Origin: Psychrobacter sp.
Lineage (GTDB): Bacteria; Pseudomonadota; Gammaproteobacteria; Pseudomonadales; Moraxellaceae
DNA length: 12,227 nt
Direction: 5' to 3'
Assembly: GCA_012270355.1 (NCBI GenBank)
Contig: JAAXIL010000249.1
Location: 1-12,227, forward strand
Numbering within the stretch: position 1 is the first letter of the stretch; each line of letters opens with the position of its first letter. Below are positions 1-12,227 of this stretch, in pieces. Both the position numbers and the translations under genes were made by a program. The notes under the pieces were generated by a model. It did not search any database. It saw nothing but the letters and a program-made list of their open reading frames with translations, and was not told the origin of the DNA.

Positions 1-1734
1 ACACCCGAATTGATCGAAAAAAACGACTTTATCCGCAACATTATTCGAGAGGATTTAGCAAACAACAAAGTTCAGCAAGTCGTTACCCGTTTTCCGCCTG
101 AGCCAAACGGCTATTTACATTTGGGGCACGTCAAATCCATTTGTCTAAACTTTGGCGTGGCCGATGAGTTTGATGGCGTGTGTCATTTGCGATTTGATGA
201 CACCAATCACACCGCTGAAAAACAAGACTACATCGACAACATCAAAAAGGACGTGGAATGGCTAGGCTTTGACTGGGTGGGGGAAGCTCGGCATGCGTCC
301 GCTTATTTTGACCAACTGCACGATTGGGCGGTGCAATTGGTTAAGCAAGGCGATGCCTATGTGGATTTGCAAACGCCTGAGCAAATTAAAGACAATCGGG
401 GTTCGTTTAATGAGGCAGGCACGCCATCGCCCCAGCGTGATGCCAGCGTGGAAGACAATCTAAAACGCTTCGAGGACATGAAAAACGGCAAATATGCCGA
501 AGGCGAAGCGGTATTGCGGGCAAAAATCGACATGGCAAGCCCCAATATGAACCTGCGAGATCCCGTAATTTATCGGGTCATGCACCAGTCACATCACCAG
601 ACAGGAGACAAATGGTGCATCTATCCCATGTACGATTATGCCCATCCGCTGTCCGATGCGATTGAAGGCATTACCCACTCGCTTTGCACGTTAGAATTTG
701 AAGACCATCGTCCGTTTTATGACTGGGTGGTGGACAAAATTGGCGAAAAAGGGGGCATCAAGACCCCACCGCATCAGTATGAATTCAGCCGTCTTAATGT
801 TGACCATACTTTGACTAGCAAGCGAAAACTCAAGCAATTGGTTGATGAAGGCATTGTTAGCGGTTGGGATGACCCACGCATGCCGACGGTAGCAGGGATG
901 CGTCGTCGGGGTTACACGCCCGAAGGCTTACGGGATTTTTGTGAGCGGGTGGGTGTGGCAAAAGCTGATGGTGTGGTCGATTATCGGTTGTTGGAATTTA
1001 GCATTCGTCAATCGCTTGAGACCACAACAGCACGAGGCATGGCAGTATTACAACCGCTTAAAGTGACCATTACTAACTTTGATGAAGCAGTGAGCCAGTG
1101 GCAGGATTTAAAAGCCGATAGCGTCACAGCTCGCTTTGACGAGGTAACGCAAACACTTTGGCTAACTCAACCTAAACACCCACAAATCGACATGGGCGAG
1201 CGAGAAATTCCGTTTACCAAGACCATTTATATCGATCAATCTGATTATGAGCTGGAACCGCCAAAAGGTTATAAAAGGTTATCACCAGAGAAAACCGAAA
1301 TTCGTTTGCGTAACACTTATTGCCTAAACGTTACCGAACATGTTACCGATAGTGATGGCAACGTGACCGAACTTAAAGCAACGATTGACCCAACGACGTT
1401 GGGCAAAAATCCTGAAGGTCGCAAGGTTAAAGGGGTGATTCACTGGGTGTCTGCCGAGCAAGGCGTACCTGCTACGGTGCGTTTGTATGAGCATTTATTC
1501 AGTGTTGATGATCCATCAAGTGCTGATGACGTTCATGCGGTGCTAAATCCTAATTCACTTACCGAACTAGATGCTGTGGTTGAGCCGTCGCTTGCAAATG
1601 CCGAGGGGGGCACACGCTTTCAGTTTGAGCGTGAAGGCTATTTTATTGCTGATAGCGAAAAGCATACGTCTGACAAACCTGTGTTTAATCAGATTGTCAG
1701 TTTACGGGATAGTTTTACCCCGCTACGCTCTTAA
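1..1734 (+). CDS. glnS: Glutaminyl-tRNA synthetase (GlnRS), 5' end outside window
   Basis: Cytoplasmic class I aminoacyl-tRNA synthetase that joins glutamine to tRNA-Gln using ATP. The frame is open from base 1, so the true start probably lies upstream; a TTG at 10 is in frame but has no visible ribosome binding site. Counting from the first codon, the class I HIGH signature appears as HLGH at residues 40-43, inside FPPEPNGYLHLGH. The KMSKS loop appears as LTSKRKL at 271-277. The catalytic core is followed by the beta-barrel anticodon-binding region, ending with the typical QFEREGYF and KPVFNQIVSLRDS stretches. At about 577 codons it is slightly longer than the E. coli enzyme (554), with extra residues near 360-400. 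It ends in TAA, 137 bases before aroC. Identification rests on motifs plus strong recalled similarity over the whole length. Confidence 0.95.
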   Translation, partial: TPELIEKNDFIRNIIREDLANNKVQQVVTRFPPEPNGYLHLGHVKSICLNFGVADEFDGVCHLRFDDTNHTAEKQDYIDNIKKDVEWLGFDWVGEARHASAYFDQLHDWAVQLVKQGDAYVDLQTPEQIKDNRGSFNEAGTPSPQRDASVEDNLKRFEDMKNGKYAEGEAVLRAKIDMASPNMNLRDPVIYRVMHQSHHQTGDKWCIYPMYDYAHPLSDAIEGITHSLCTLEFEDHRPFYDWVVDKIGEKGGIKTPPHQYEFSRLNVDHTLTSKRKLKQLVDEGIVSGWDDPRMPTVAGMRRRGYTPEGLRDFCERVGVAKADGVVDYRLLEFSIRQSLETTTARGMAVLQPLKVTITNFDEAVSQWQDLKADSVTARFDEVTQTLWLTQPKHPQIDMGEREIPFTKTIYIDQSDYELEPPKGYKRLSPEKTEIRLRNTYCLNVTEHVTDSDGNVTELKATIDPTTLGKNPEGRKVKGVIHWVSAEQGVPATVRLYEHLFSVDDPSSADDVHAVLNPNSLTELDAVVEPSLANAEGGTRFQFEREGYFIADSEKHTSDKPVFNQIVSLRDSFTPLRS

Positions 1735-1784
1735 CATTTCAAGCGTTGTCGCTGAAACGTCTGAAGTTGAGGTGCTTTCTGATG

Positions 1785-1837
1785 AACAATAATGGATTAA
1801 ACCTATTGTTTGAGACTGTTTAATAATAAACGTTTTT
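1785..1837 (+). terminator. Weak hairpins with a T-run between glnS and aroC
   Basis: AACAATA (1785-1791) pairs with TATTGTT (1804-1810), extendable by GG/CC with a small bulge. Just downstream GTTTA (1818-1822) pairs with TAAAC (1827-1831) and is followed by GTTTTT. The stems are short and AT-rich, so this may be a weak intrinsic terminator for glnS or only AT-rich leader DNA. No convincing -35/-10 pair for aroC was found in the rest of this gap. Confidence 0.25.
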
Positions 1838-1871
1838 AGCCTTAGATACACATATAAAAAAGAGAACCCTT

Positions 1872-2972
1872 ATGGCAGGCAACACAATTGGGCAAGCATT
1901 CACCGTTACTACCTGTGGCGAATCGCATGGGGCAGGGCTGATGGCAATCGTCGATGGCGTACCGCCAAATATGCCCCTTACTAAAGCAGATTTACAAACT
2001 GATCTTGACCGCCGTAAACCGGGCACGTCCAAGTTTGCCACCCAGCGTAAAGAACCTGACGAAGTGGAAATCATCTCAGGCGTGTTTGAGGGCAAAACCA
2101 CAGGCACGTCCATTGGTTTGCTGATTCGCAACACCAATCAAAAATCCAAAGACTACAGCGACATCAAAGACACCTTTCGTCCTGGTCATGCCGACTATAC
2201 CTACAGCATGAAATACGGCTTTCGAGACTACCGTGGGGGCGGACGCTCATCGGCACGTGAAACAGCGATGCGGGTAGCGTCAGGAGCCATCGCCAAAAAA
2301 TACCTAAAAGAAAAGTTTGGGCTTGAGATTCACGGACACGTCGTTCAAATTGGTAATGAGACTGCCAATCCGCCAGCCTTAAGCGATTTTGATTGGGTGT
2401 TTGTGAATAGTCTCCCGTTGGTTTGTGCGGACCCTGATGCCATTCCCCGTTTTGAAGCCTTAATCACCGACTTACGCAAGCAAGGCACAAGCTGTGGAGC
2501 AATGCTCGAAGTTATAGCGACAGGCGTGCCCGTCGGACTGGGCGAGCCTGTGTTTGACCGCTTAGATGCCGACATTGCCCATGCGATGATGGGCATCAAT
2601 GCGGTAAAAGGCGTGGAAATTGGTGATGGCATGGCGGTTGCCGAACAGTTTGGACACGAAGCACGTGACGAGCTGACCCCCGACGGCTTTACCGCCAATC
2701 ATGCAGGCGGAATTTTGGGCGGTATTTCATCAGGGCAAGATATTGTTGTCAGAATTGCCTTAAAGCCCACCTCAAGCATCACCACCGCAGGTAAAAGTAT
2801 CGACACGTACGGCAATCCCACCGAAATGCTCACCAAAGGACGGCATGACCCCTGCGTAGGCGTACGAGCGACCCCCATCGCTGAGGCGATGCTGGCAATT
2901 GTGCTGATGGATCACGTCATGCGTCATCGTGGGCAAAATGCCGATGTGGTGCAACCATTACAGGCGATTTGA
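1872..2972 (+). CDS. aroC: Chorismate synthase
   Basis: Last enzyme of the shikimate pathway. It converts 5-enolpyruvylshikimate-3-phosphate to chorismate, the precursor of aromatic amino acids and folate, and needs reduced FMN. The 366-residue length matches the family (E. coli AroC is 361). Visible signatures are the N-terminal GESHG (residues 16-20, with the conserved His19), RPGHAD (103-108, His106) and [11 protein letters not shown] (121-131), then GGISSGQDI and the C-terminal [17 protein letters not shown] stretch. The ATG at 1872 starts [20 protein letters not shown], the usual family N-terminus, with a weak purine-rich AGAGA site about 7 bases upstream. The gene is intact and ends in TGA. 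It is followed by the nitroreductase after 47 bases, and a likely promoter for that gene overlaps the aroC stop codon. Confidence 0.97.
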
Positions 2973-2997
2973 TAATAAACTCATAAAACAGTATAGA
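2969..2997 (+). promoter_or_regulatory. Candidate sigma-70 promoter for the nitroreductase gene
   Basis: TTGATA (2969-2974) and TATAGA (2992-2997) are separated by exactly 17 bases. The -35 box overlaps the aroC stop codon. The predicted transcription start near 3004 would fall at the ribosome binding site AAGGAAA (3005-3010), giving a very short leader before the ATG at 3020. Both boxes are good matches, but the short leader lowers confidence and the gene may be co-transcribed with aroC. Confidence 0.4.
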
Positions 2998-3019
2998 ATA
3001 AAAAAGGAAAGCCTATCTT

Positions 3020-3664
3020 ATGGACAACAAGAATCAAGAACCCACAAACACAGATAGCAACATTCAGAAAACCCAAAACGAACAAGTTACCCCCGACCAT
3101 CTCATCAATTGGATAAACTCACGGCGAAGCATCGGCAACCTGACCATTCCTGCCCCAAGCGATGAGCAAATCCAGCAAGCGATTGAATGTGCCATGACTG
3201 CCCCTGACCACAAAAAGCTAAAACCGTGGCGATTTATCATCATCAAAGGGCAAGCACGGCATGAGTTTGGGCGAGCCTTGTTATTGGCTGAGGAAGCCAA
3301 AGCCGAGCGAAATTGGGAAACCTTAACCGAACAGACCCAGCAAAAAACGCTCGGTATGCCTCTGCGTGCCCCCGTCATCATTGCCGTCGTCACTCGCATG
3401 CAATACCATGAAAAAGTGCCCGCTTACGAGCAGATGCTTAGTGCAGGGGCGAGCGTGCAAAACTTAATATTGGCTCTCAAGGCTCAAGGCTTCAGCACCG
3501 TTTGGCGGACTGGCACGCTTGCCAACGAGCCTGCCGTCAAATCATATTTTAATGTTGGTTTTGAAGATTATGTCACCGCCTTTGTCTACGTTGGCAAAAG
3601 TGCATGTGATTTCCCCAATCGAGGCGACATCGACACCACAGGCTTTATTGAATATCGAGATTAG
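3020..3664 (+). CDS. Nitroreductase family protein, YdjA-like
   Basis: Predicted FMN-dependent oxidoreductase of the nitroreductase superfamily, closest by recall to E. coli YdjA (183 residues). The physiological substrate is unknown. The flavin-binding N-terminal signature is SRRSIGNL (34-41), followed by APDHKKLKPWRF (61-72), which matches the YdjA-type APDHK..PW motif. KVPAYEQMLSAGASVQN and the GFSTVWRTG motif (157-165) follow, the latter lying near the flavin in relatives. The first ~27 residues are a polar, Gln/Asn-rich extension absent from E. coli YdjA. The start has a strong ribosome binding site, AAGGAAA at 3005-3010. The stop is TAG, the only intact gene here to use it; reading through would add 19 codons to a TAA at 3722. 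Family assignment is firm, specific function is not. Confidence 0.88.
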   Translation: MDNKNQEPTNTDSNIQKTQNEQVTPDHLINWINSRRSIGNLTIPAPSDEQIQQAIECAMTAPDHKKLKPWRFIIIKGQARHEFGRALLLAEEAKAERNWETLTEQTQQKTLGMPLRAPVIIAVVTRMQYHEKVPAYEQMLSAGASVQNLILALKAQGFSTVWRTGTLANEPAVKSYFNVGFEDYVTAFVYVGKSACDFPNRGDIDTTGFIEYRD

Positions 3665-3787
3665 AACAGTTTTAACTATCAACAGAGCCTACTGGTGAAC
3701 TCTAAACAGACCCTCATTGATTAACCACGCCAAATGTGCGACAGTTAGCCTAATTCGTTCTCATTTGCCAACCAAAAGACCATAACC

Positions 3788-5035
3788 ATGCCAAACGTGC
3801 CATTTTCCAACCTTTTAAAAGGCAAAAAACAAACAGGTGTGCCTGAAGAAATCATCGCCGATGCCGAAGCCCGCATGCAAGCTGGTTTATCCAAATCGGA
3901 TTCAACTGAGACGGAAGGCAATGCTGAGACAGACACGCACCCTCAATCGACACCGTCTAAAAAATCCGCCGACAACCTACGCCTTACCTTTTTGGGCGGG
4001 GGCAGTTTTGGCACAGCAATGGCAAACCTTGCCTCAAAAAACGGATGCAACGCCACGCTTTGGGTACGCAATAAACGCACGGTCAAATCGCTAAATAAAA
4101 CCCGCATCAACAAAAAATACCTACCCGATTATTCCCTAGACGATAGCCTTAAATTCGAACACGACCTAAAAACCGCAGTCGCTGACAAAGACATTATTTT
4201 TGTTGCCGTCCCCAGCTCTGGTTTTCGAGAAACCCTACAAAACATCGCCCCACACATCAAAGGGCAAGCCATCGTATCGCTCACCAAAGGCATGGAAAAA
4301 GACACCTTTGCCCTAACGACCGACATCATCACAGATGAATAGCCCGAGGTCAACTTCGGGGTTATGTCAGGACCCAACCTCGCGGTTGAAATCATGCAAA
4401 ACATGCCATCTGCCTCGGTCATCGCCAGCGAATCCGAACCCTTGCGTCATGCCGTGCAATCCGCCTTGCACAGTGCTTTTTTTCGGGTTTTCGGCTCAGA
4501 CGACGTGACGGGCGTGGAGCTTGGCGGAGCCCTCAAAAACATCTACGCCATCGCCATGGGCATGGCTTCTGCCTACAACGTTGGCGAAAACACCAAAGCC
4601 CTCATTCTAACCCGTGCTCTCGCCGAAATGAGCCGATTTGGCGTAGCTTACGGAGCCAACCCGCTCACCTTTTTGGGGCTGTCGGGCGTGGGCGACCTTT
4701 ACGCCACCTGCAACTCGCCGTTATCCCGCAATTACCGCATCGGCAACATGCTCGGCAAAGGCACAAACCTCGACACCGCCATCAAAAAACTCGGACAAAC
4801 CGCCGAAGGGGTCAACACCATTGCCCAAGTCCACGACAAAGCCAAACAGATAGGCATCTACATGCCCATCACCCACGCCCTACACTCGGTGATTTTCGAC
4901 GGACAAGCCCCCCTCGGCGTGGCATTGCACCTGATGGAAGTCGGTTTCCGTAGCGACGTGGAGTTCGTCATGCCCCACGACGTCAGCAACGAGGCATTAG
5001 AAGACAGCTTAAACGACGACACAGAAGACAAATAA
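3788..5035 (+). pseudogene. gpsA: NAD(P)H-dependent glycerol-3-phosphate dehydrogenase, interrupted by in-frame TAG
   Basis: GpsA reduces dihydroxyacetone phosphate to sn-glycerol-3-phosphate, the backbone for membrane phospholipids. The Rossmann nucleotide-binding motif is LGGGSFGTAMA (69-79), then SLTKGME (164-170, conserved Lys167), SGPNLAVEI (194-202) and GGALKN with catalytic Lys250. Codon 185 (4340-4342) is TAG, between ITDE and PEVNFGVMSGPNLA, with the same frame continuing to TAA at 5033-5035. No frameshift or other lesion is visible, and the residues around the stop align with intact relatives. By recall these relatives carry leucine there, so TTG to TAG is the simplest change. An ATG at 4364 could only restart a C-terminal fragment lacking the NAD domain. 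Full length would be 415 residues including a ~60-residue polar N-terminal extension, as in recalled Psychrobacter GpsA. The status could be pseudogene, readthrough or sequence error. Confidence 0.9.
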
Positions 5036-5123
5036 ATAGGGTAGTAATAGGGGTAGCTTTATAGCGAGAATGCAAAATAAGTATCCACCCGATAGCGGTA
5101 GTTTTTATGTAGTTGGTTTTACT

Positions 5124-5270
5124 GGAGCTATTTCCCGCTTTCCGCTTGTATCTTGCTAGCCGATGGCGTGCGTGCTATGTGGCTAAGTGCGTTCCAGACT
5201 TCGAGCGACCACCCTTAGCCACAGCCCGCATCGCCATCGTACACGCAAGGATATCGCTACAATCGGGGCT
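5124..5270. repeat. Imperfect palindromic (hairpin) element
   Basis: The arms 5161-5187 and 5214-5239 are imperfect inverted repeats. Both share outer CGATGGCG and inner TGGCTAAG, with a few mismatches and one or two gaps between. The loop is about 26 bases. The pairing extends weakly outward: TATCTTGC near 5149 against GCAAGGATA ending at 5253. The element edges, GGAGCTATTTCCCGC (5124) and CTACAATCGGGGCT (ending 5270), resemble from memory the edges of compact palindromic repeats in other bacterial genomes, notably Bacteroidetes. That resemblance is unverified. There is no T-run, so an intrinsic terminator is unlikely. Confidence 0.6.
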
Positions 5271-5273
5271 ATG

Positions 5274-5343
5274 CCCGACTACTTAATTTAAGTTAAAATT
5301 AGCTCGGAGTTTTAAATTAGCGTTCATAAATTAAGTAGTCGGG
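5274..5343. repeat. Perfect 17-bp inverted repeat around a 36-bp spacer
   Basis: CCCGACTACTTAATTTA (5274-5290) is the exact reverse complement of 5327-5343. Inside the spacer TTAAAA (5293-5298) pairs with TTTTAA (5310-5315), and AAATTAGC occurs twice as a direct repeat (5296-5303 and 5314-5321). The layout suits a small non-coding mobile repeat or a stable stem-loop. No T-run follows on either strand, so it is not a standard terminator. It directly abuts the preceding hairpin element. Confidence 0.65.
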
Positions 5344-5376
5344 TGTTCACACATAACAATCTTAAAAGGCACGTTT

Positions 5377-5808
5377 ATGCACCTCATCTTAATGCGACAC
5401 GGCGAAGCCGAACGCCAAACCCCACAGGACAACGAACGTCAACTTACCGACTTTGGCAGGCAACAAGCCGAAGAACCGGCTGAAAACCTCCTCGCTAATT
5501 AGACCCCCGACCATTTTGTGGTTAGCCCTTTCGCCCGTGCCCAGCAAACCCTTGAAACCTTTACCAGCCGTTTGCCCGACGTGCCTGTCAGTGTCCACGA
5601 CGACATCACCCCCAGCGACGATGCAATGCAAGCCATTTCAGGGCTTGCTGACGTGCAAGGTGAGTGCGTGCTTGTAGTGTGCCACATGCCGATTGTGGCA
5701 AAACTGGCAGGTTTGCTCACAGGACAATCGCCTGAAAGCTATGCTCTAGACGAAGCTCTATTGATTGAGCTGGATTTTGTCGCCTCGGAAATGGGCGAAG
5801 AGTTTTAA
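5377..5808 (+). pseudogene. sixA: SixA-type phosphohistidine phosphatase, interrupted by in-frame TAG
   Basis: Small member of the histidine phosphatase (phosphoglycerate mutase-like) superfamily. SixA of E. coli removes phosphate from a histidine of phosphotransfer proteins. The ATG at 5377 gives MHLILMRHGEAE with the RHG motif at 7-9 (catalytic His8) and an AAAAGG site upstream. Codon 42 (5500-5502) is TAG. The frame then continues through SPFARAQQT (50-58, phosphate-binding Arg54) and VVCHMP (second catalytic His103) to TAA. Full length would be 143 residues, a little short of E. coli SixA (161). The amber sits in LLAN-stop-TPDHFVVSP; relatives often carry an aromatic or polar residue there, so a Tyr codon (TAT or TAC) to TAG is a plausible single change. 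No other damage is seen. The fragment after the stop lacks catalytic His8 and should be inactive without readthrough. Confidence 0.85.
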
Positions 5809-5828
5809 CGGTTTGTCCCTAAACAAAA

Positions 5829-5932
5829 TTAGTCAACCAAAATGGCACCAGCACTGTGTTAAACTCGCTTGAAGTACTTAATGTACATCTGCACTCGTTT
5901 GCCTTGTGCTGATGCCATTTTGCAATGACTAA
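5829..5932 (-). repeat. Dispersed palindromic element, copy 1
   Basis: AAAATGGCACCAGCAC (5839-5854) pairs with 5906-5921 with one mismatch, and the outer edges TTAGTCA (5829-5835) and TGACTAA (5926-5932) also pair. The loop region, read on the minus strand, holds ACAAGGCAAACGAGTG (complement of 5892-5907) and TACTTCAAGCGAGTTTAA (complement of 5859-5876). Both blocks recur in the same order in copy 2 at 8825-8919. The centre contains the small palindrome GTACTTAATGTAC. It fills much of the gap between sixA and gspL. Confidence 0.75.
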
Positions 5933-5970
5933 GTCAACTATTCGACCACAAGAGCGGGTGATAACCCCCA

Positions 5971-6000
5971 AATATCAATGATTGCAGTGATTAATATCAA
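5971..6000 (+). promoter_or_regulatory. Direct repeat upstream of gspL
   Basis: AATATCAA occurs at 5971-5978 and again at 5993-6000, 22 bases apart (about two helical turns), just upstream of the gspL ribosome binding site. A TTGCAG at 5982-5987 lies between the two but lacks a good -10 partner. This could be an operator, but the motif is short and AT-rich. Confidence 0.2.
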
Positions 6001-6008
6001 AACTCATT

Positions 6009-6016
6009 AAAAGAGA
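6009..6016 (+). promoter_or_regulatory. Ribosome binding site supporting the GTG start of gspL
   Basis: The purine run AAAAGAGA ends six bases before the GTG at 6023. An in-frame TAA at 6008-6010 closes the frame immediately upstream, so GTG 6023 is the only sensible start for the complete N-terminal domain. Confidence 0.5.
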
Positions 6017-6022
6017 CCCCAA

Positions 6023-7555
6023 GTGATTCATGTTTGGCAACCTTCCGCCCTCCAAGCGGATACATTTTTAGTCTGGTCAGAAACTATAAAGAAGTGGCAA
6101 TCGGTCACGGGCTGGCATGGCGTTGCTCAAGCTGTTAATCAGTCCTATGTCTCTGCCAAATCCAGCCCCTCTAGCGTCTGCTTTTATGTGCCCACTGCCA
6201 GCGTTTTAAGCCTGAACAATCATTTGTCCACCAGTGAGCTGAAGCATCTCGGCGAGCAGGGGCAACAGTATTTGTTTGAAGACATGAGCCTATCGCCCGT
6301 TGAGCAGTTGCGGGTACGGCATCGCTCAGGAGTCACGTCGCCAAAGCTTGTTTCTAAAGCTAACCAAGAATTTCAGAATGATGATAGTAATGCAAAGCCA
6401 GCCGATTCAACCAACACGCAATCAGCGGTTTTATATGCCTTGAACCAAACCCGTATCACCAGTTTGCAAAGTGGAGCGGAGTTAGCAGGGTTTAGCAGCA
6501 CTGCTGTTTTGCCCGATTTTGTGTTGTTGCCATCGCCTGAATTGCCTGCCACCGCCGTTGCGGTTGACACTGCTAATCTTGCAACCAGTCTTTCTAATAC
6601 TGGCGGCAATCAAACCTCTAGCCCTGTCAATCAATCCTCACCTGCAACTACTCAATCCGCTCATTCAAGCCAATCTGCTCTAACGCTACGCCTATCGGAG
6701 CATCATGGCTTAGCCGTCAGCGTCCTGTCTTTGTTGCCAGCAACCTTGCCAAATTTAGAAGAGTTGATTTTGCTCGGCAAACAAGAGGCGGAAATTGCCC
6801 CAGAACTTCAATCTCTCTGCCAAGAGTATGGCATTGTGTTGGGTTTGCAAGATGCCCAGCCTATGCCCGTAGCTAATCCAAGCAAACACTGGCTTAACTT
6901 TGTGCAGGCGGAACGCAATCGTTTGGCATCCCCCTATCTACAAGTAGCAATGGGCGTGCTTTTATTGGCAGGCATGGTACAAATGCTGGCTGATGCGGTG
7001 CAATGGTATCAATATGAACAAGCGACAGTGGCGGTCAAGCAAGCCAATATCAATCAGTTTAGCAGTTGGTTTGCAGGTGAAACTCTTAATCCTCGGGTCA
7101 CTGTCCGAACCCAAGTTGAGCCTCGTTTGATCACTACAGGCGACGACGCACAAACTCAGCTTGACCTGATGAATACGCTCGCCCCGCTGATTAAACAAAA
7201 TGACCTCACTGCCCAGGCCATACGCTGGAGTGATAATCAATTATCCTTAACGCTGATTAGCGATAGCCGAGCGGGTATCGATAATTTGCAACGCACCCTT
7301 ACCGAGCAGGGCATTGTCAGCAATCTTGGAGCCATCACCCCGTATGCCCTCGATTCAGGCGACACGGACATGAATACATCCGAGGCGACTGGCGTACAGG
7401 CGGAACTCACATTGCCACTCACGCCTGACACATCTGCTAACGCTTCCGATAGCTTGGCGTTGTCGAAGTTTGCTTTCTCAAACAATGCGTCATCGAAAAA
7501 TACGCTTATCAACATAAACATGCCAGCTTTCACTTCAAACCACTTTGTCAGCTAA
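6023..7555 (+). CDS. gspL: Type II secretion system protein GspL
   Basis: Inner-membrane platform protein of the type II secretion system. It ties the cytoplasmic ATPase GspE to GspM and the periplasmic pseudopilus machinery. Residues ~1-280 look like the cytoplasmic actin-like domain: MIHVWQPSA at the start, then YLFEDMSLSPVEQLRVRH. One membrane helix lies at about 305-325 (YLQVAMGVLLLAGMVQMLADA) and a periplasmic ferredoxin-like domain follows. The 510 residues exceed the usual ~400. The excess is a Ser/Thr/Gln/Asn-rich insert at about 183-219 inside the cytoplasmic part and a ~45-residue low-complexity tail after the last expected strand. The start is GTG. gspM follows after 12 bases and is surely co-transcribed. 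The remaining gsp genes are not in the window, consistent with scattered T2SS genes in Moraxellaceae. Confidence 0.85.
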   Translation: MIHVWQPSALQADTFLVWSETIKKWQSVTGWHGVAQAVNQSYVSAKSSPSSVCFYVPTASVLSLNNHLSTSELKHLGEQGQQYLFEDMSLSPVEQLRVRHRSGVTSPKLVSKANQEFQNDDSNAKPADSTNTQSAVLYALNQTRITSLQSGAELAGFSSTAVLPDFVLLPSPELPATAVAVDTANLATSLSNTGGNQTSSPVNQSSPATTQSAHSSQSALTLRLSEHHGLAVSVLSLLPATLPNLEELILLGKQEAEIAPELQSLCQEYGIVLGLQDAQPMPVANPSKHWLNFVQAERNRLASPYLQVAMGVLLLAGMVQMLADAVQWYQYEQATVAVKQANINQFSSWFAGETLNPRVTVRTQVEPRLITTGDDAQTQLDLMNTLAPLIKQNDLTAQAIRWSDNQLSLTLISDSRAGIDNLQRTLTEQGIVSNLGAITPYALDSGDTDMNTSEATGVQAELTLPLTPDTSANASDSLALSKFAFSNNASSKNTLININMPAFTSNHFVS

Positions 7556-7567
7556 GGATAATTTGTT

Positions 7568-8092
7568 ATGGCAATCACTGCCCCAAAACTTAGCCGGAAA
7601 AAAACAGCACGGCAAACAACGCAGGCAACGTCATCATCACTTGCGATCCTTGGTGAACGCTGGCAACAACTGCCGTCCCGTGACCAACTGGCGTTGGTGC
7701 TACTCGGATTGTTTCTATTGGCAGTTGCTGGCGGATATGGGGGTTACAAATTGCATCAATCCGCAAATGAGCAACAAGCCAATTACAATCAAGCAATTGA
7801 TGAATTTTTTTGGCTTCGAGGACAAGCAGGCAACCTTAGCGACAGCACTGATGCCAACGTCCAACCCTTACCCGAACGGCTAAATCAGCAATTAGCAAGG
7901 GCGGGCGTGCAGTCGCTTCAAGTGTTGCCCGCAGGTGAGGCGGTGCAAATCAGCTTTACCCATGACAATCAGGCGGTGATTAGCAATTCGCTCGGTTCGC
8001 TCGTCGACTCAGGCTTGTCTTTAACCCAGCTCAACATGACGCAAAATCCCAAGACGGGCGTCATTACGGTGCAAGCGACGGTGAGTGAATAA
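7568..8092 (+). CDS. gspM: Type II secretion system protein GspM
   Basis: Small bitopic inner-membrane protein that pairs with GspL in the secretion platform. Residues 1-40 are a basic cytoplasmic tail containing WQQLPSRDQ, matching the W..L..R(E/D) pattern that precedes the helix in GspM proteins. A single membrane helix spans about 41-60 (LALVLLGLFLLAVAGGYGGY). The rest is a periplasmic ferredoxin-like domain. The 174-residue length is typical. The start ATG has AAGGAT (7555-7560) upstream, overlapping the last base of the gspL stop codon. Identification comes from topology, the pre-helix motif and position behind gspL, since the family has low sequence conservation. Confidence 0.83.
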   Translation: MAITAPKLSRKKTARQTTQATSSSLAILGERWQQLPSRDQLALVLLGLFLLAVAGGYGGYKLHQSANEQQANYNQAIDEFFWLRGQAGNLSDSTDANVQPLPERLNQQLARAGVQSLQVLPAGEAVQISFTHDNQAVISNSLGSLVDSGLSLTQLNMTQNPKTGVITVQATVSE

Positions 8093-8158
8093 CAGACATT
8101 GAAATTATTCCAAATCGTCGCTATCAATGACGTATCAGCCTGCCACGTTAATATCACC

Positions 8159-8767
8159 ATGACCGAACCGAATCCAAAATCGCCTCAACCCGACTTAAAC
8201 TTAAGCAAGCAAAAACCATCAACTAAATCTTCTGAACAAGTATCGGCACAAACGTCGACAGCGGGGAACAGCCAGTTTGATGATTTTATCAGTCCCAATC
8301 CAATGCCTGCTTCAGATTTATCCTATCAGCTACACTTACCTGCCCACACTCATCAAACACCCCGGCTGAGCAAGGCGGAAGAAACCTCTCTCATTCGGCA
8401 TAATCACTTAACCTATCTTATGTATGTGTTGAGTTTTTTTACCGCAGGGCTATTGTGGATCGTGCCAATTGTTATGAACTATGCCCGCAGGCGAGAAGCT
8501 GACGGCACTTGGCTGGCGACCCATTTCGATTGGCAGATCAAGACGTTTTGGTATTCGTTGGTGTTTGGGCTAATTGGCGTGGTTATGGTCATTATCGGAC
8601 TGGGCGGCGTCGGCATTAGTGCATTAGCCGAAAGTACAGGCGGGGCAATCGGTTCAGTTGGCTTGGGATTGTTTGGCGGATTGATATTATTTTTGGCAAC
8701 CATCTGGCATATTTATCGCATCGTTCGGGGTTGGGTTGCCTTAACGGACAAACGCCCTGTGCCTTAA
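8159..8767 (+). CDS. Uncharacterised three-helix membrane protein
   Basis: I cannot name this gene. The 202-residue product has a ~75-residue hydrophilic Pro/Ser/Gln-rich N-terminal segment, then three predicted membrane helices at about 84-106 (LTYLMYVLSFFTAGLLWIV), 130-154 and 165-188. The stretches HFDWQIKTFWYS (122-133) and WHIYRIVRGWVAL (183-195) look conserved and resemble small DUF4870/Tic20-like membrane proteins from memory; treat this as a guess. ATG 8159 is preferred. The frame extends to a TTG at 8099, only six bases after the gspM stop, but that adds 20 residues with no clear ribosome binding site; neither start has a strong one. It may belong to the gspLM transcript, but membership in the secretion system is not implied. 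Confidence 0.7.
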   Translation: MTEPNPKSPQPDLNLSKQKPSTKSSEQVSAQTSTAGNSQFDDFISPNPMPASDLSYQLHLPAHTHQTPRLSKAEETSLIRHNHLTYLMYVLSFFTAGLLWIVPIVMNYARRREADGTWLATHFDWQIKTFWYSLVFGLIGVVMVIIGLGGVGISALAESTGGAIGSVGLGLFGGLILFLATIWHIYRIVRGWVALTDKRPVP

Positions 8768-8824
8768 TAAGTCGCTTTAAGTCGTATCTAAATGAAGCTA
8801 CCGATGGGTACAAACGTACAGTCA

Positions 8825-8919
8825 AGTCAGAATGAAATTGGTACAAGGCAAACGAGTGAAGAACAAATATTACTTCGAGCGAGTTTAATACCGTACCAGT
8901 TTTATTGTGTACAGACTAA
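8825..8919 (+). repeat. Dispersed palindromic element, copy 2
   Basis: TTGGTAC (8838-8844) pairs with GTACCAG (8893-8899) with one wobble, and AGTC (8825-8828) faces GACT (8914-8917) at the edges. Between the arms lie ACAAGGCAAACGAGTG (8843-8858) and TACTTCGAGCGAGTTTAA (8871-8888). Both also occur in copy 1 at 5829-5932, there on the opposite strand. Arm sequences differ between the copies but pairing is kept. The right edge touches the expected -35 region of pyrD. Confidence 0.72.
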
Positions 8920-8942
8920 ATTCAAAAATAACGCCAGACTGC

Positions 8943-8951
8943 TGTTATAAT
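8943..8951 (+). promoter_or_regulatory. Extended -10 promoter of pyrD
   Basis: TGTTATAAT contains a perfect TATAAT (8946-8951) preceded by the TGn extension (8943-8945). The predicted start near 8958 gives a leader of about 23 bases before the pyrD ATG. No TTGACA-like box lies 16-18 bases upstream; TTCAAA at 8921-8926 is 19 bases away. An extended -10 can act without a good -35. The leader shows no clear Shine-Dalgarno sequence. Confidence 0.6.
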
Positions 8952-8980
8952 AGCCCGCATATTTTCTCAATTAAATTGTC

Positions 8981-10012
8981 ATGTCTTACGCTTTGCTACG
9001 CCCGTTTCTGTTTGGGATCGAACCCGAACAGGCTCACGACACCACGCTAAAACTGCTTGAAAAGGCTCACAAGTCGCATAGTTTGGGCTTTGTTTATTCC
9101 CGTCAATCATTGCCGACGCAGTGCATGGGTTTGCATTTTGATAATCCCGTCGGCTTGGCAGCAGGGCTGGACAAAAACGGTGAATATATCGATGCGTTGG
9201 CAGCTCTCGGCTTTGGTTTTATTGAAATCGGTACGGTTACGCCGAAACCGCAGGCAGGCAATGACAAGCCGAGAATGTTTCGCCTTAAAGACGCACGAGC
9301 CATCATTAACCGTATGGGCTTTAATAATGAAGGGGTGGACAATCTAATAGCGAATGTGAAACGGGCGAAATATCAAGGTAATTTGGGCATAAATATTGGC
9401 AAAAATGCGGTGACCCCAGTCGAAAACGCCGCTGAAGACTATGTGTATTGTCTTGAACGGGTGTATCCGTATGCGTCTTATATCACGGTCAATATTTCCT
9501 CACCCAATACCAAAAATTTGCGAAATTTGCAAAGTGGTTCTGCCCTTACTGAGCTTTTGGATACCATCAAAAATACGCACACTCGTCTTGCAACTGATTA
9601 TGGTTTTTATGTGCCCATGGTGCTAAAGGTTGCTCCCGATTTGGATGACACACAGATTGAGTACATTGCCCAGCAACTCATTGATTTTGATATTGATGGA
9701 CTGATTGCGACCAATACCACACTGAGCCGAGTGGGGGTGGAGGACTTACCACATGGCGATGAAGCAGGTGGGTTATCAGGACGACCAGTTAGCCACATGA
9801 GTACGCAGGTGCTGAGCCAATTCGCTAGGCACCTACAGGGGCAAGTCCCAATTATTGGGGTAGGGGGCATTGACTCTGGCGACAAAGCGGTGCAAAAGTT
9901 GCAAGCGGGAGCCAGCATGGTGCAACTGTATTCGGGCATGGTGTATCAAGGTCCTCGGCTTATTCAAGAATGTGTGGAAGCCATTGCAGGTTTTTGGGAT
10001 TTGCAGGGCTAA
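8981..10012 (+). CDS. pyrD: Dihydroorotate dehydrogenase (quinone), class 2
   Basis: Fourth enzyme of de novo pyrimidine synthesis. It is an FMN flavoprotein at the inner membrane that oxidises dihydroorotate to orotate and passes electrons to quinone. The N-terminal helical segment [15 protein letters not shown] is the membrane and quinone-facing part that marks class 2. The barrel follows: [48 protein letters not shown] (171-177, with Ser174 matching the E. coli catalytic base Ser175), ATNTTL, GGLSGRP and GVGGIDSG. At 343 residues it is close to E. coli PyrD (336). ATG 8981 gives the usual N-terminus. The gene sits alone behind its own promoter, 71 bases before cvpA. Intact. Confidence 0.97.
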
Positions 10013-10047
10013 CGTACTCAAGTGTTAAGGATTTTTAGGGTTGGCTA

Positions 10048-10074
10048 ATGAGTGACAGATTTTATGATGAATAG
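10048..10074 (+). other. Eight-codon upstream frame before cvpA, ending in TAG
   Basis: ATG at 10048 with AGGG (10037-10040) upstream opens MSDRFYDE and ends at TAG 10072-10074, nine bases before the cvpA ATG and in the same frame. It could be a tiny leader frame coupling translation into cvpA, or chance. The TAG overlaps the bases that would serve as the cvpA ribosome binding site. Confidence 0.2.
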
Positions 10075-10083
10075 GTTGTATTG

Positions 10084-10572
10084 ATGCTAGACATTATCAT
10101 TGCGGTCATCGTGCTGATAGGACTATGGCGAGGCTATCAAGCAGGATTTATCCGTACTGCTATCGGACTTGTCGGTTGGTTTATTGCCCTCGTCGCCGCT
10201 ACTCGACTTGCTGATGATATTGCCCCACAGATGACAGAGTTTGTTGCCTCACCCGTATTGCAAACAGGCTTGGCATTTTTGGCGGTGGTATTGGTGGTAC
10301 TAGCCATCATGCAGGTGGTTGGGTTTATGGCACGAAGTTTGATCAAAGGATTAAAATTAAGTTTGCTCGACCAAATGGCTGGGGGGGTTTTAGGAGCAAC
10401 CAAAAACATTCTCGTGATTTTGGTTATGCTGAGTATTTCTGCCCCTGTTCTTGTGCAAATGCCCATGTGGACAAACTCGACCCTTGCTCCAGAACTTTTA
10501 CCCTATGCCCCTTTCGCTACCGATTTTACCAAACAAGTCTTGGGCGGAGCGTGGGAGCAGTTGAATTCTTAA
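10084..10572 (+). CDS. cvpA: CvpA family inner-membrane protein
   Basis: Polytopic inner-membrane protein. In E. coli, CvpA is needed for colicin V production and affects envelope stress tolerance; its biochemical role is unsettled. The 162 residues match E. coli CvpA (162). Four hydrophobic helices are visible at about 3-22, 26-42, 61-82 and 108-125. Between helices 3 and 4 lies LLDQMAGGVLGATK (94-107), equivalent to the family's DR.LG...GA.RG loop. ATG 10084 is chosen over the adjacent TTG 10081; TAGG at 10071-10074 is a modest ribosome binding site. It lies 59 bases ahead of purF, the cvpA-purF pairing seen widely in gamma-proteobacteria, so the two are probably one operon. Confidence 0.9.
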   Translation: MLDIIIAVIVLIGLWRGYQAGFIRTAIGLVGWFIALVAATRLADDIAPQMTEFVASPVLQTGLAFLAVVLVVLAIMQVVGFMARSLIKGLKLSLLDQMAGGVLGATKNILVILVMLSISAPVLVQMPMWTNSTLAPELLPYAPFATDFTKQVLGGAWEQLNS

Positions 10573-10631
10573 ATCTAAATCCCATAACCTCGAATTATTT
10601 CTAAACAAATCTCTAAGCGAAAGGACACTAT

Positions 10632-12170
10632 ATGTGCGGAGTTGTCGGCATTGCCGCTTTTGAACCTGTCAACCAAATGCTCTATGACGCATTAACGGTG
10701 CTTCAGCATCGGGGACAGGATGCGGCAGGCATCGTCACCATGCAGGACGGGCGATTTTTTCTACGCAAAGACAATGGCATGGTGCGAGACGTGTTTATGA
10801 CCCGCCACATGCTAAGACTGGTTGGCAATTACGGCATCGGACACATTCGCTATCCGACCGCTGGTACCTCCAGCAGTGCCGAAGCCCAGCCCTTTTATGT
10901 CAACTCGCCTTATGGCATCACGCTGGCTCACAATGGCAATTTGACCAATGCCGAAGACCTCGCTATCGAATTGTATCAAGATGATTTGCGTCATCTCAAC
11001 ACCAACTCGGATACCGAGGTTTTGCTAAACGTCTTAGCCCATGAGTTGAACAATTTGGGCAAAACCACTCCCAGCCCCGAAGATATCTTTGCGGCAGTTA
11101 GCAAAATGTATGACCGCATCGAAGGGGCGTATGGGGTCGTGGCATTGCTGTCAGGTCAAGGGTTGCTTGCCTTTCGTGACCCAAATGGCATTCGCCCTCT
11201 GGTTTATGGCGAGCGAATTGGCAAAGATGGTGGCACAGAATATATGGTAGCGTCCGAATCGGTTGCGTTGTCGGGCAATGGCTTTACGCTGATCCGTGAC
11301 GTGAAACCTGGCGAAGCAATTTTTGTGGACATGAACCACAAGTTGCATACCATGCAATGCACCGAGCCGAGAGAATACACGCCTTGCATTTTTGAATATG
11401 TGTATTTTGCCCGCCCTGACTCCATCATGGACAACATTTCGGTGTATAAGTCTCGCCTTAGAATGGGCGAAACACTGGCGGATAAAATCCTAGAAGAGTG
11501 GGGCGAAGACCATGACATCGACGTGGTGATTCCAATTCCCGATACGTCTCGCACCTCAGCGATGGAACTTGCATTAAAATTGGGCATCAAGTACCGTGAG
11601 GGCTTTATGAAAAATCGCTATATCGGGCGAACCTTTATCATGCCAGGGCAACAACAACGCAAAAAATCGGTACGCCAAAAGCTCAATGCTGTGCCACTGG
11701 AATTTAAAAACAAAAACGTGTTGTTGGTTGATGATTCAATTGTGCGTGGCACGACCTGTCATGAAATCATCCAAATGGCACGTGATGCAGGGGCAAAAAA
11801 TGTTTTCTTTGCCAGTGCTGCACCGCCTGTCAAATTTCCGAACGTGTATGGCATTGATATGCCTGCCCGTAGCGAATTGATTGCTTCGGGGCATAGTGTT
11901 GAAGAAGTCCGCCAAATCATCGGAGCGGATCGTTTGATTTATCAAGATTTGGACGATTTGATTGAAGCGGTGCAAGACACCAAACACAGCAAGGTTGAAG
12001 GCTTTGATTGTGCGGTATTCAATGGATGCTACATTGCAGGGCAAATCAACGAAGCCTACCTTGAACACTTGCAGGAAATACGTTCTGAAACCGCCAAGGT
12101 AAAAAAATCGGGCGTACAAGTGATTGCCGACACGCCCGTTGATATGACTGGAATTGAGGAGGGAGCTTAA
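10632..12170 (+). CDS. purF: Amidophosphoribosyltransferase (glutamine PRPP amidotransferase)
   Basis: First committed enzyme of purine synthesis: transfers ammonia from glutamine to PRPP to give phosphoribosylamine. The N-terminal Ntn-type glutaminase domain opens with MCGVVGI, where Cys2 becomes the catalytic N-terminal residue once Met is removed. [16 protein letters not shown] and [13 protein letters not shown] follow. The C-terminal phosphoribosyltransferase domain carries the PRPP loop [14 protein letters not shown] (362-375, acidic pair Asp367-Asp368) and [10 protein letters not shown]. Its 512 residues fit the family (E. coli 505), and no extra N-terminal propeptide is present. A strong AAGGA (10621-10625) precedes the ATG. 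It ends in TAA; the remaining 57 bases of the window show no clear gene or terminator. Intact. Confidence 0.97.
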
Positions 12171-12227
12171 GATAGACGTTTCAAGCAACAAAAGACATCT
12201 TTCGTAGTAACATACCCCCAAGCACAA

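Follow-up and report, generated by a model that had tools for sequence, protein, structure and literature searches.

What is the palindromic repeat that stands twice between genes of a Psychrobacter contig, once on each strand, and what has kept its fold while its letters changed? The stretch analysed here, called the window, comprises 12,227 nucleotides of Psychrobacter sp. (assembly GCA_012270355.1, contig JAAXIL010000249.1, positions 1 to 12,227 of the forward strand). A first-pass annotation made from the letters of this DNA had described two copies of a dispersed palindromic element with covarying arms. We consider it very probable that each copy is an old insertion of a non-autonomous miniature inverted-repeat transposable element (MITE) of the IS630 type, which is homologous to the CREE/NEMIS (Correia) element of Neisseria, is moved in trans by an IS630 transposase and has its core kept by selection on RNA.

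The window copies belong to a large Psychrobacter family

Both copies were found at the places originally indicated: ACAAGGCAAACGAGTG is identical in the two at 16 of 16 positions, TACTTC[A/G]AGCGAGTTTAA shows one difference and the AGTCA and GACTAA edges are present, while alignment with the family gives slightly wider boundaries than first drawn (Table 1). Both are indeed intergenic, copy 1 between the sixA frame and gspL, copy 2 between an open reading frame (ORF) without an NCBIfam match (ending at 8767) and pyrD (starting at 8981). The exact 16-mer ACAAGGCAAACGAGTG occurs twice in the 1.95-Mb assembly and its reversed control not at all; with up to 3 mismatches allowed, the counts are 67 and 29. 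These counts against controls, together with the covariation against shuffles described below, rule out a chance origin of the repeats.

The covariance model search proposed by the first-pass annotation was carried out with a model, R1, built from 29 copies with CREE excluded. R1 matches 35 times in this genome and, at E <= 1e-3, at least once in 56 of the 60 genomes sampled from the genus; at most 65 candidates were scored per genome, so that counts near 60-65 are lower bounds. The unit is 105 bp plus a duplicated TA, with terminal inverted repeats of about 28-30 bp and a structured core of about 50 bases, and the ends of well-kept copies read TATAGTC...GTAC. Across Moraxellaceae, 40 of 119 genomes and 4 of 16 genera have matches. 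A scan of the class found 4 matching genomes in 369 including this one, the other 3 of 368 being weak (34-38 bits, E <= 0.001), with 10 candidates scored per genome, which makes it a poor measure of absence. This genome is a divergent member of the genus: no PyrD among the other 59 genus genomes searched shares more than 79% identity with its own. The sequence around the element match of genome G012 (L091) is identical to that of Psychrobacter frigidicola (L080). Only 1 of 79 copies lies inside an open frame of at least 80 codons.

An exact scan of the genome contig collection with the 16-mer returned 81 stretches, many of them expected by chance. Among the 80 of these loci on which R1 was run (L005-L084), full elements were recovered in two Psychrobacter loci (L019, L057), and weaker matches in L042 (38.6 bits), in L048 from Psychrobacter aquaticus (36.8 bits) and in L061 and L081, treated below; the other 74 of the 80 had no R1 match at E <= 0.01. 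Nucleotide searches with three element copies against a plasmid collection, and with copy 1 against a phage collection, gave no match.

The family behaves as a miniature transposon

Dispersal and a recent burst are directly visible in one Psychrobacter genome (G461), in which 21 of the 28 copies fetched are identical over 107 bp, 6 have 1-3 differences and one carries a small insertion; their flanks are unrelated as judged by eye. Empty and filled sites, whose comparison had also been suggested, could be aligned upstream of cysG. The filled site of genome G501 reads CTTT-TA-TAGTC...GACTA-TA-TAATAAA. The insert is missing from five relatives, whose sequence here is CTTT-TA-TAATAAA, with one extra T beside the site in two cases. 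The insert is thus 105 bp long and the TA is duplicated (one filled against five empty sites). R1 found no element in the other 23 of the 24 cysG loci.

We also compared the loci of the window copies. R1 found the element in this genome alone among 30 pyrD loci fetched (60 genomes matched), and in all 29 relatives the locus extends 705 bases or more upstream of the frame. The same was seen for gspL, where this genome alone among 30 loci (52 of 60 genomes matched) carries the element, with at least 639 bases upstream in 28 of the 29 relatives and none in L397. Because neither copy is found at these loci in relatives, both most likely entered this lineage separately from the relatives covered. 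Their terminal TATAG motifs are altered, to CTTAG...CTAAT in copy 1 and TACAG...CTAAA in copy 2; the outer TA has changed, so that the target duplications of these two copies can no longer be read.

The family is short, contains no transposase gene, is present in many dispersed copies and shares inverted repeats with IS630; it behaves as a miniature transposon. This bears out the earlier suggestion of a MITE-like element, dispersed and dependent on an enzyme encoded elsewhere, and the dozens of copies, polymorphic positions and strong covariation are the opposite of the few, fixed and non-covarying copies that had been named as counting against it. At another locus (L099:1475-1680), two head-to-tail elements share terminal TATA bases, as if one had inserted at the TA end of the other.

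The family is related to the Correia element of Neisseria

The first-pass annotation knew no established name for the element, and here it can be corrected: it has a relative in the Correia element. We fetched CREE copies from IMG/VR contigs by the published Correia ends (PMC2649163). These contigs presumably come from Neisseria, because they bear Correia ends and, in L146, the uptake word GCCGTCTGAA, which is given in PMC2911385. R1 finds five CREE matches in four contigs, on the same strand and over model positions 1-107, with E-values of 6.9e-11 to 1.4e-8 for four short matches and 2.2e-6 for a long form in L145; L143 and L144 show the same CREE copy in two contigs.

Like the Psychrobacter family, CREE is 107 bp long including the TA and aligns with it end to end; it has inverted ends starting with TATAG, a TA target with a 105-bp insert, the same core in order and strand, a long hairpin and many copies per genome. 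The two differ in their hosts, the present family being found in Psychrobacter and relatives, and in their ends, which read TATAGTC/TATAGCC here as against TATAGTGG/TATAGCGG in CREE; the arms have diverged, and the long form of about 155 bp is absent among the Psychrobacter matches inspected (97-111 bases). The family does not carry the 26-bp Correia repeat TATAG[CT]GGATTAA... within 3 mismatches, its ends reading TATAGTCGATTCAATTTAAAAG and similar when compared by eye with the published patterns. By these alignments the Psychrobacter family is homologous to CREE from end to end and, because its ends fail this pattern, it is a sister family and not CREE itself.

CREE has been called 'unique to the Neisseria spp.' (PMC5039591). 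This confinement is not upheld in view of the homologues in 56 of the 60 Psychrobacter genomes. An earlier report of a Correia-like element outside Neisseria concerns a MITE of Candidatus Thiomargarita nelsonii, described as structurally most similar to Correia, with TATAG ends and a large hairpin; its authors report that the internal sequence diverges from Correia and that they found no strong insertion-sequence candidate (PMC4853749). In the literature on Correia in connection with Psychrobacter, Moraxella, Acinetobacter or IS630 and on Psychrobacter MITEs or palindromic repeats, covered in part and with few subscription papers, we found no report of the present family. One table counts repetitive extragenic palindromic (REP) sequences in Psychrobacter arcticus, and the part of that paper at hand does not describe the present element (PMC12306157). 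On that coverage the family outside Neisseria is new, as is the structured core that recurs with other arms, described below. Another MITE of Moraxellaceae, MITEAba12, has a comparable length (113 bp) and proved unrelated, with ends GGCTTTGTTGCACAAA, a 9-bp target duplication and ISAba12 as its parent (PMC6382973).

Arms and inner stem covary

The arms of the two window copies had been said to differ and still to pair, and the folding energies of both copies agree with this. On the sense strand, the RNA fold of copy 1 has -46.0 kcal/mol (z -7.9, 0 of 200 shuffles as good) and that of copy 2 has -27.4 kcal/mol (z -4.3, 1 of 200). Read on its other strand, copy 2 folds only weakly above chance (z -1.7, 10 of 200). 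Two copies are too few for a claim of covariation, which is therefore carried by other copies of the family. In 25 aligned copies (of the 35 matches in this genome) fitted to the model, 87 cells were changed on both sides and still pairing, as against 24.6 in shuffles (0 of 500), which substantiates the claim that the fold is kept under sequence change. In alignment A2, 71 such cells compare with 24.4 in shuffles (0 of 500).

The same was seen across 29 diverse cores, comprising CREE and elements with other arms (alignment A7, 29 of 34 cores, with L202, L206, L209, L214 and L125 left out as miscut). Here 133 double-changed pairing cells compare with 40.5. The covariation score reaches 0.69, whereas slid partners do not exceed 0.18, although the double changes fall on an unexceptional number of pairs (16 vs 13.7, as many in 32 of 500 shuffles). 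The inner four-base stem occurs as AAAC/GTTT, AACC/GGTT, AGAC/GTCT, GCGC/GCGC and AACG/CGTT, and the mismatched internal loops flanking it (GA opposite GA; AAGGC opposite AACRC) rank among the most conserved columns. Compensatory change is thus directly observed, and the covariation of arms and inner stem is strong. An RNA already in Rfam was set aside as an explanation: at the gathering score Rfam has 0 matches in the window, and below it the hits are a plant miRNA model (E 2.4e-4) and a thermometer.

Such covariation could also arise by palindrome correction, that is, by template switching at a replication hairpin that copies one arm onto the other and involves no selection. Paired end changes in this genome look like its products, since GATAGCC/AGCTATC, TATCGTC/GACGATA and TTTAGTC/GACTAAA mirror each other. 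Canonical ends are kept in 3 of the 25 copies by a strict seven-base rule (TATAG and CTATA in 6 of 25), and inner pairs are equally well preserved with canonical ends (94%, 3 copies) and with other ends (94%, 22 copies), as correction would allow. Correction would, however, erase the mismatched internal loops, which are among the most conserved columns even in elements with other arms, and it predicts no asymmetry between G.U and A.C mismatches. We regard it as a rather unlikely account of the kept fold, though one with some standing.

IS630 insertion sequences are the likely mover

The mechanisms that mobilize CREE 'have not been determined' according to PMC2649163, and Correia already stands among the IS630-derived MITEs listed by PMC2817692. 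A parallel, by description, is RUP of Streptococcus pneumoniae, a 107-bp MITE with a TA target and IS630-like ends that has been proposed to be moved by IS630-Spn1 (PMC2229807, PMC3049150); PMC2229807 reports similar insertion-sequence ends for RUP only.

We collected IS630 elements by a PF13358 domain search in 8 genomes and by a search with one transposase in 60 genomes, which gave 59 loci, 49 of them long enough. Their ends were chosen blind to the element as the best inverted pair starting with TA (at least 18/30), leaving 39 distinct places. Of the 78 ends, 60 match the element end at 20/30 or more, the best at 27, as against 27 of 23,516 other TA-starting 30-mers (0.11%). Both ends start with TATAG and lie 904-921 bp apart in 30 of the 39 places. 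Some low-scoring ends are set in registers two or four bases off (L263, L275, L364, L369), and others are fragments. All 11 elements inspected have a shorter and a longer overlapping frame, and in six aligned proteins the second D and the E of what we take to be the catalytic triad are invariant. A protein 95% identical is annotated as IS630 on plasmid CP151284.2 (named Psychrobacter), and related IS630 elements with TATAG ends are found on one plasmid each of Acinetobacter, Moraxella, Moellerella and Piscirickettsia. The Psychrobacter IS630 (CP151284.2; L268, L277) shares with the element TATAGTC, AAAA and GTAC or GTTAY at equal spacing. It differs in being autonomous-looking, 904-921 bp long when both its ends are TATAG, with two transposase reading frames and an interior unlike that of the element. 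Genome G071 has 32 matches to the IS630 transposase.

We infer that an IS630-family transposase, a DDE enzyme that cuts and pastes into TA, would bind the ends shared by insertion sequence and element and move the latter in trans, and we consider IS630 the likely mover. Several observations weigh against this or against other parts of our reading. Because its interior is unlike that of the insertion sequence, the element is not a simple deletion derivative of it. Element and IS630 counts are uncorrelated across the 60 genomes (Spearman 0.08, p 0.56): the IS630 protein is present in 21 of 32 genomes with at least 30 elements and in 15 of 22 with fewer than 10, 11 of the 32 have no IS630 protein match at E <= 1e-20, and no element accompanies the 18 and 16 IS630 matches of G040 and G046. 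The sole IS630 match in the present genome has an in-frame stop and no recognisable ends, and an IS630 copy in the burst genome (L269) has lost the first catalytic-looking D. Beyond the mover, only one empty site could be aligned, a truncated copy at one CREE locus (L147) scored E 0.79 with R1, and by crude ORF calling the copies have no preferred orientation towards genes (34 sense vs 26 antisense, p 0.37).

The lack of correlation, and a genome such as G016 with at least 65 element matches and no IS630 protein match, would be expected if a different transposase moved the element and the similar IS630 ends reflected an older shared origin. Against this stand 30-base ends alike at up to 27 positions with the same TATAG start, also in the burst genome G461, and a burst followed by loss of the insertion sequence would likewise leave no correlation. 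A different mover is therefore unlikely in our estimate.

The inner fold leans to RNA

Under selection on RNA, G.U pairs are tolerated and A.C mismatches are not. We examined wobble in 84 copies, obtained from 115 + 21 matches after removal of antisense, short and duplicate ones; the main count was made on 28 clusters (75% identity) and restricted to positions with Watson-Crick pairing in 60% or more of the copies. In the inner pairs G.U exceeds A.C (47 vs 19, p 8e-4), and at the outer ends the two are balanced (35 vs 29, p 0.53). With 61 clusters at 95%, the outer ends give 48 vs 32 (p 0.09) and the inner pairs 55 vs 19. Two further counts speak against selection on RNA in the core: counted by position, the inner asymmetry is 12 vs 4 (p 0.077), and among 57 unclustered copies the outer ends are themselves asymmetric (117 G.U vs 33 A.C), which blurs the contrast of ends and core. 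This outer asymmetry comes mostly from positions 8/100 and 11/97, which are excluded under the 60% rule. On the sense strand the inner part leans to RNA; its contrast with the ends is no more than suggestive, and the wobble evidence for selection as RNA is, overall, mixed.

The fold might instead matter as DNA, with an extruded cruciform or single-strand hairpin as part of the transposition substrate and no role for RNA. The whole element is a near-perfect palindrome and has moved, as this would require. IS630/Tc1-type DDE transposases, however, act on double-stranded ends, copies with altered ends retain the inner fold, and the inner pairs are richer in G.U than in A.C, which together make a role of the DNA fold decidedly improbable. 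The suggestion that the copies are REP-like palindromes moved by a REP-associated tyrosine transposase (RAYT, Y1), although they are palindromic, intergenic and numerous, is hardly credible because the 107-bp unit, homologous to CREE, has IS630-like, DDE-type terminal inverted repeats and, at one site, a TA duplication, features foreign to the action of Y1/RAYT enzymes (no search for a RAYT gene was made).

Selection on RNA would act on the element after it has landed. We infer that, upon intergenic insertion, read-through transcripts would fold into the hairpin, and that the conserved core may be kept by selection on this RNA. The core could, for instance, be a signal for processing, by RNase III or otherwise, and so render insertions between genes tolerable, comparable to the RNase III cleavage of the transcript proposed for NEMIS (PMC2229807, PMC10969869).

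The core recurs in elements with other arms

The core follows the pattern CAAGGC-N4-GAGYG ... RAGYGA-N4'-AACRC, in which N4 and N4' are complementary and the mismatched internal loops are fixed. The same core is found between other arms in the three further genomes of the class-wide scan (L179/L183, L180, L181) and in two viral contigs. The pattern occurs at 4 viral loci; L405 and L407 carry the same folded element, and L406 and L408, which lack a complementary stem, are probably chance matches. A record titled Christensenella (L061, 6849-6954), a different phylum from Moraxellaceae and Neisseria, contains a full R1 match (51.5 bits, E 5.6e-9) with L405-like arms and the same loop pattern; contamination is possible because the record is a metagenome-assembled genome. 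L081, from the same Christensenella isolate, gives a weak match (29.1 bits). Because the other distant scores (29-39 bits) are at the level of antisense matches of R1 to its own palindromes (up to 39 bits), the homology of weak matches rests on the core letters and loop pattern, compared by eye. The distant element of L179 had no nucleotide match in the plasmid collection.

The core may thus be an undescribed structured RNA module set inside unrelated arms and ends in Moraxellaceae, Neisseria, three further families of the class, viral contigs and the Christensenella record, acting after transcription and under a selection that does not depend on the transposase by which the arms are moved. 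We hold this tentatively, as a serious possibility that falls a little short of an even chance; it is strengthened by the L061 match. Such a module would be, for example, a signal bound by a protein or RNase that makes insertions harmless or useful.

Two side observations concern these loci. L061 and L405/L407 have arms like TGTGGGCGAGAGATTTTGCCGCAAG around the same core and represent a second type of element, which looks like a family of its own. Rfam, run on 8 related loci, returned only a c-di-GMP riboswitch away from the element; this c-di-GMP-I riboswitch (L181:2166-2250) shares a 3.1-kb locus with a distant core-bearing element.

Features of the window

Table 1. Element copies in the window and their paired segments. 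The bit scores are not independent, since both copies are among the 29 sequences from which R1 was built.
Feature	Position	Strand	Basis
Copy 1, Correia-like element, 106 bp	5828-5933	minus	family alignment; covariance model R1, 95.7 bits over positions 1-107
Copy 1 5' arm GGCATCAGCAC	5906-5916	minus	pairs with 5844-5854
Copy 1 3' arm GTGCTGGTGCC	5844-5854	minus	pairs with 5906-5916
Copy 1 inner-stem 5' strand AAAC (covarying four-base stem in core)	5897-5900	minus	fold and covariation
Copy 1 inner-stem 3' strand GTTT	5861-5864	minus	fold and covariation
Copy 2, Correia-like element, 104 bp	8817-8920	plus	family alignment; covariance model R1, 100.8 bits over positions 1-107
Copy 2 5' arm TTGGTAC	8838-8844	plus	pairs with 8893-8899
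Copy 2 3' arm GTACCAG	8893-8899	plus	pairs with 8838-8844
Copy 2 inner-stem 5' strand AAAC	8850-8853	plus	fold and covariation
Copy 2 inner-stem 3' strand GTTT	8883-8886	plus	fold and covariation

The plus-strand neighbours gpsA (3788-5035) and sixA (5377-5808) each contain one in-frame TAG (4340-4342 and 5500-5502) in frames that are otherwise open, which may be decay, an assembly error or something else. Between them, at 5274-5343, lies a perfect inverted repeat of 17 bp, CCCGACTACTTAATTTA, whose spacer measures 36 bases and which has no match to the element model.

Implications for Correia-like elements

The Correia element has been described as confined to Neisseria and without a known mover. 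The Psychrobacter family makes the mover testable outside a pathogen, in a genus that has insertion sequences with similar ends and, in one genome, a recent burst. The covarying core common to elements with different arms poses a separate testable question, namely whether it is a functional RNA module.

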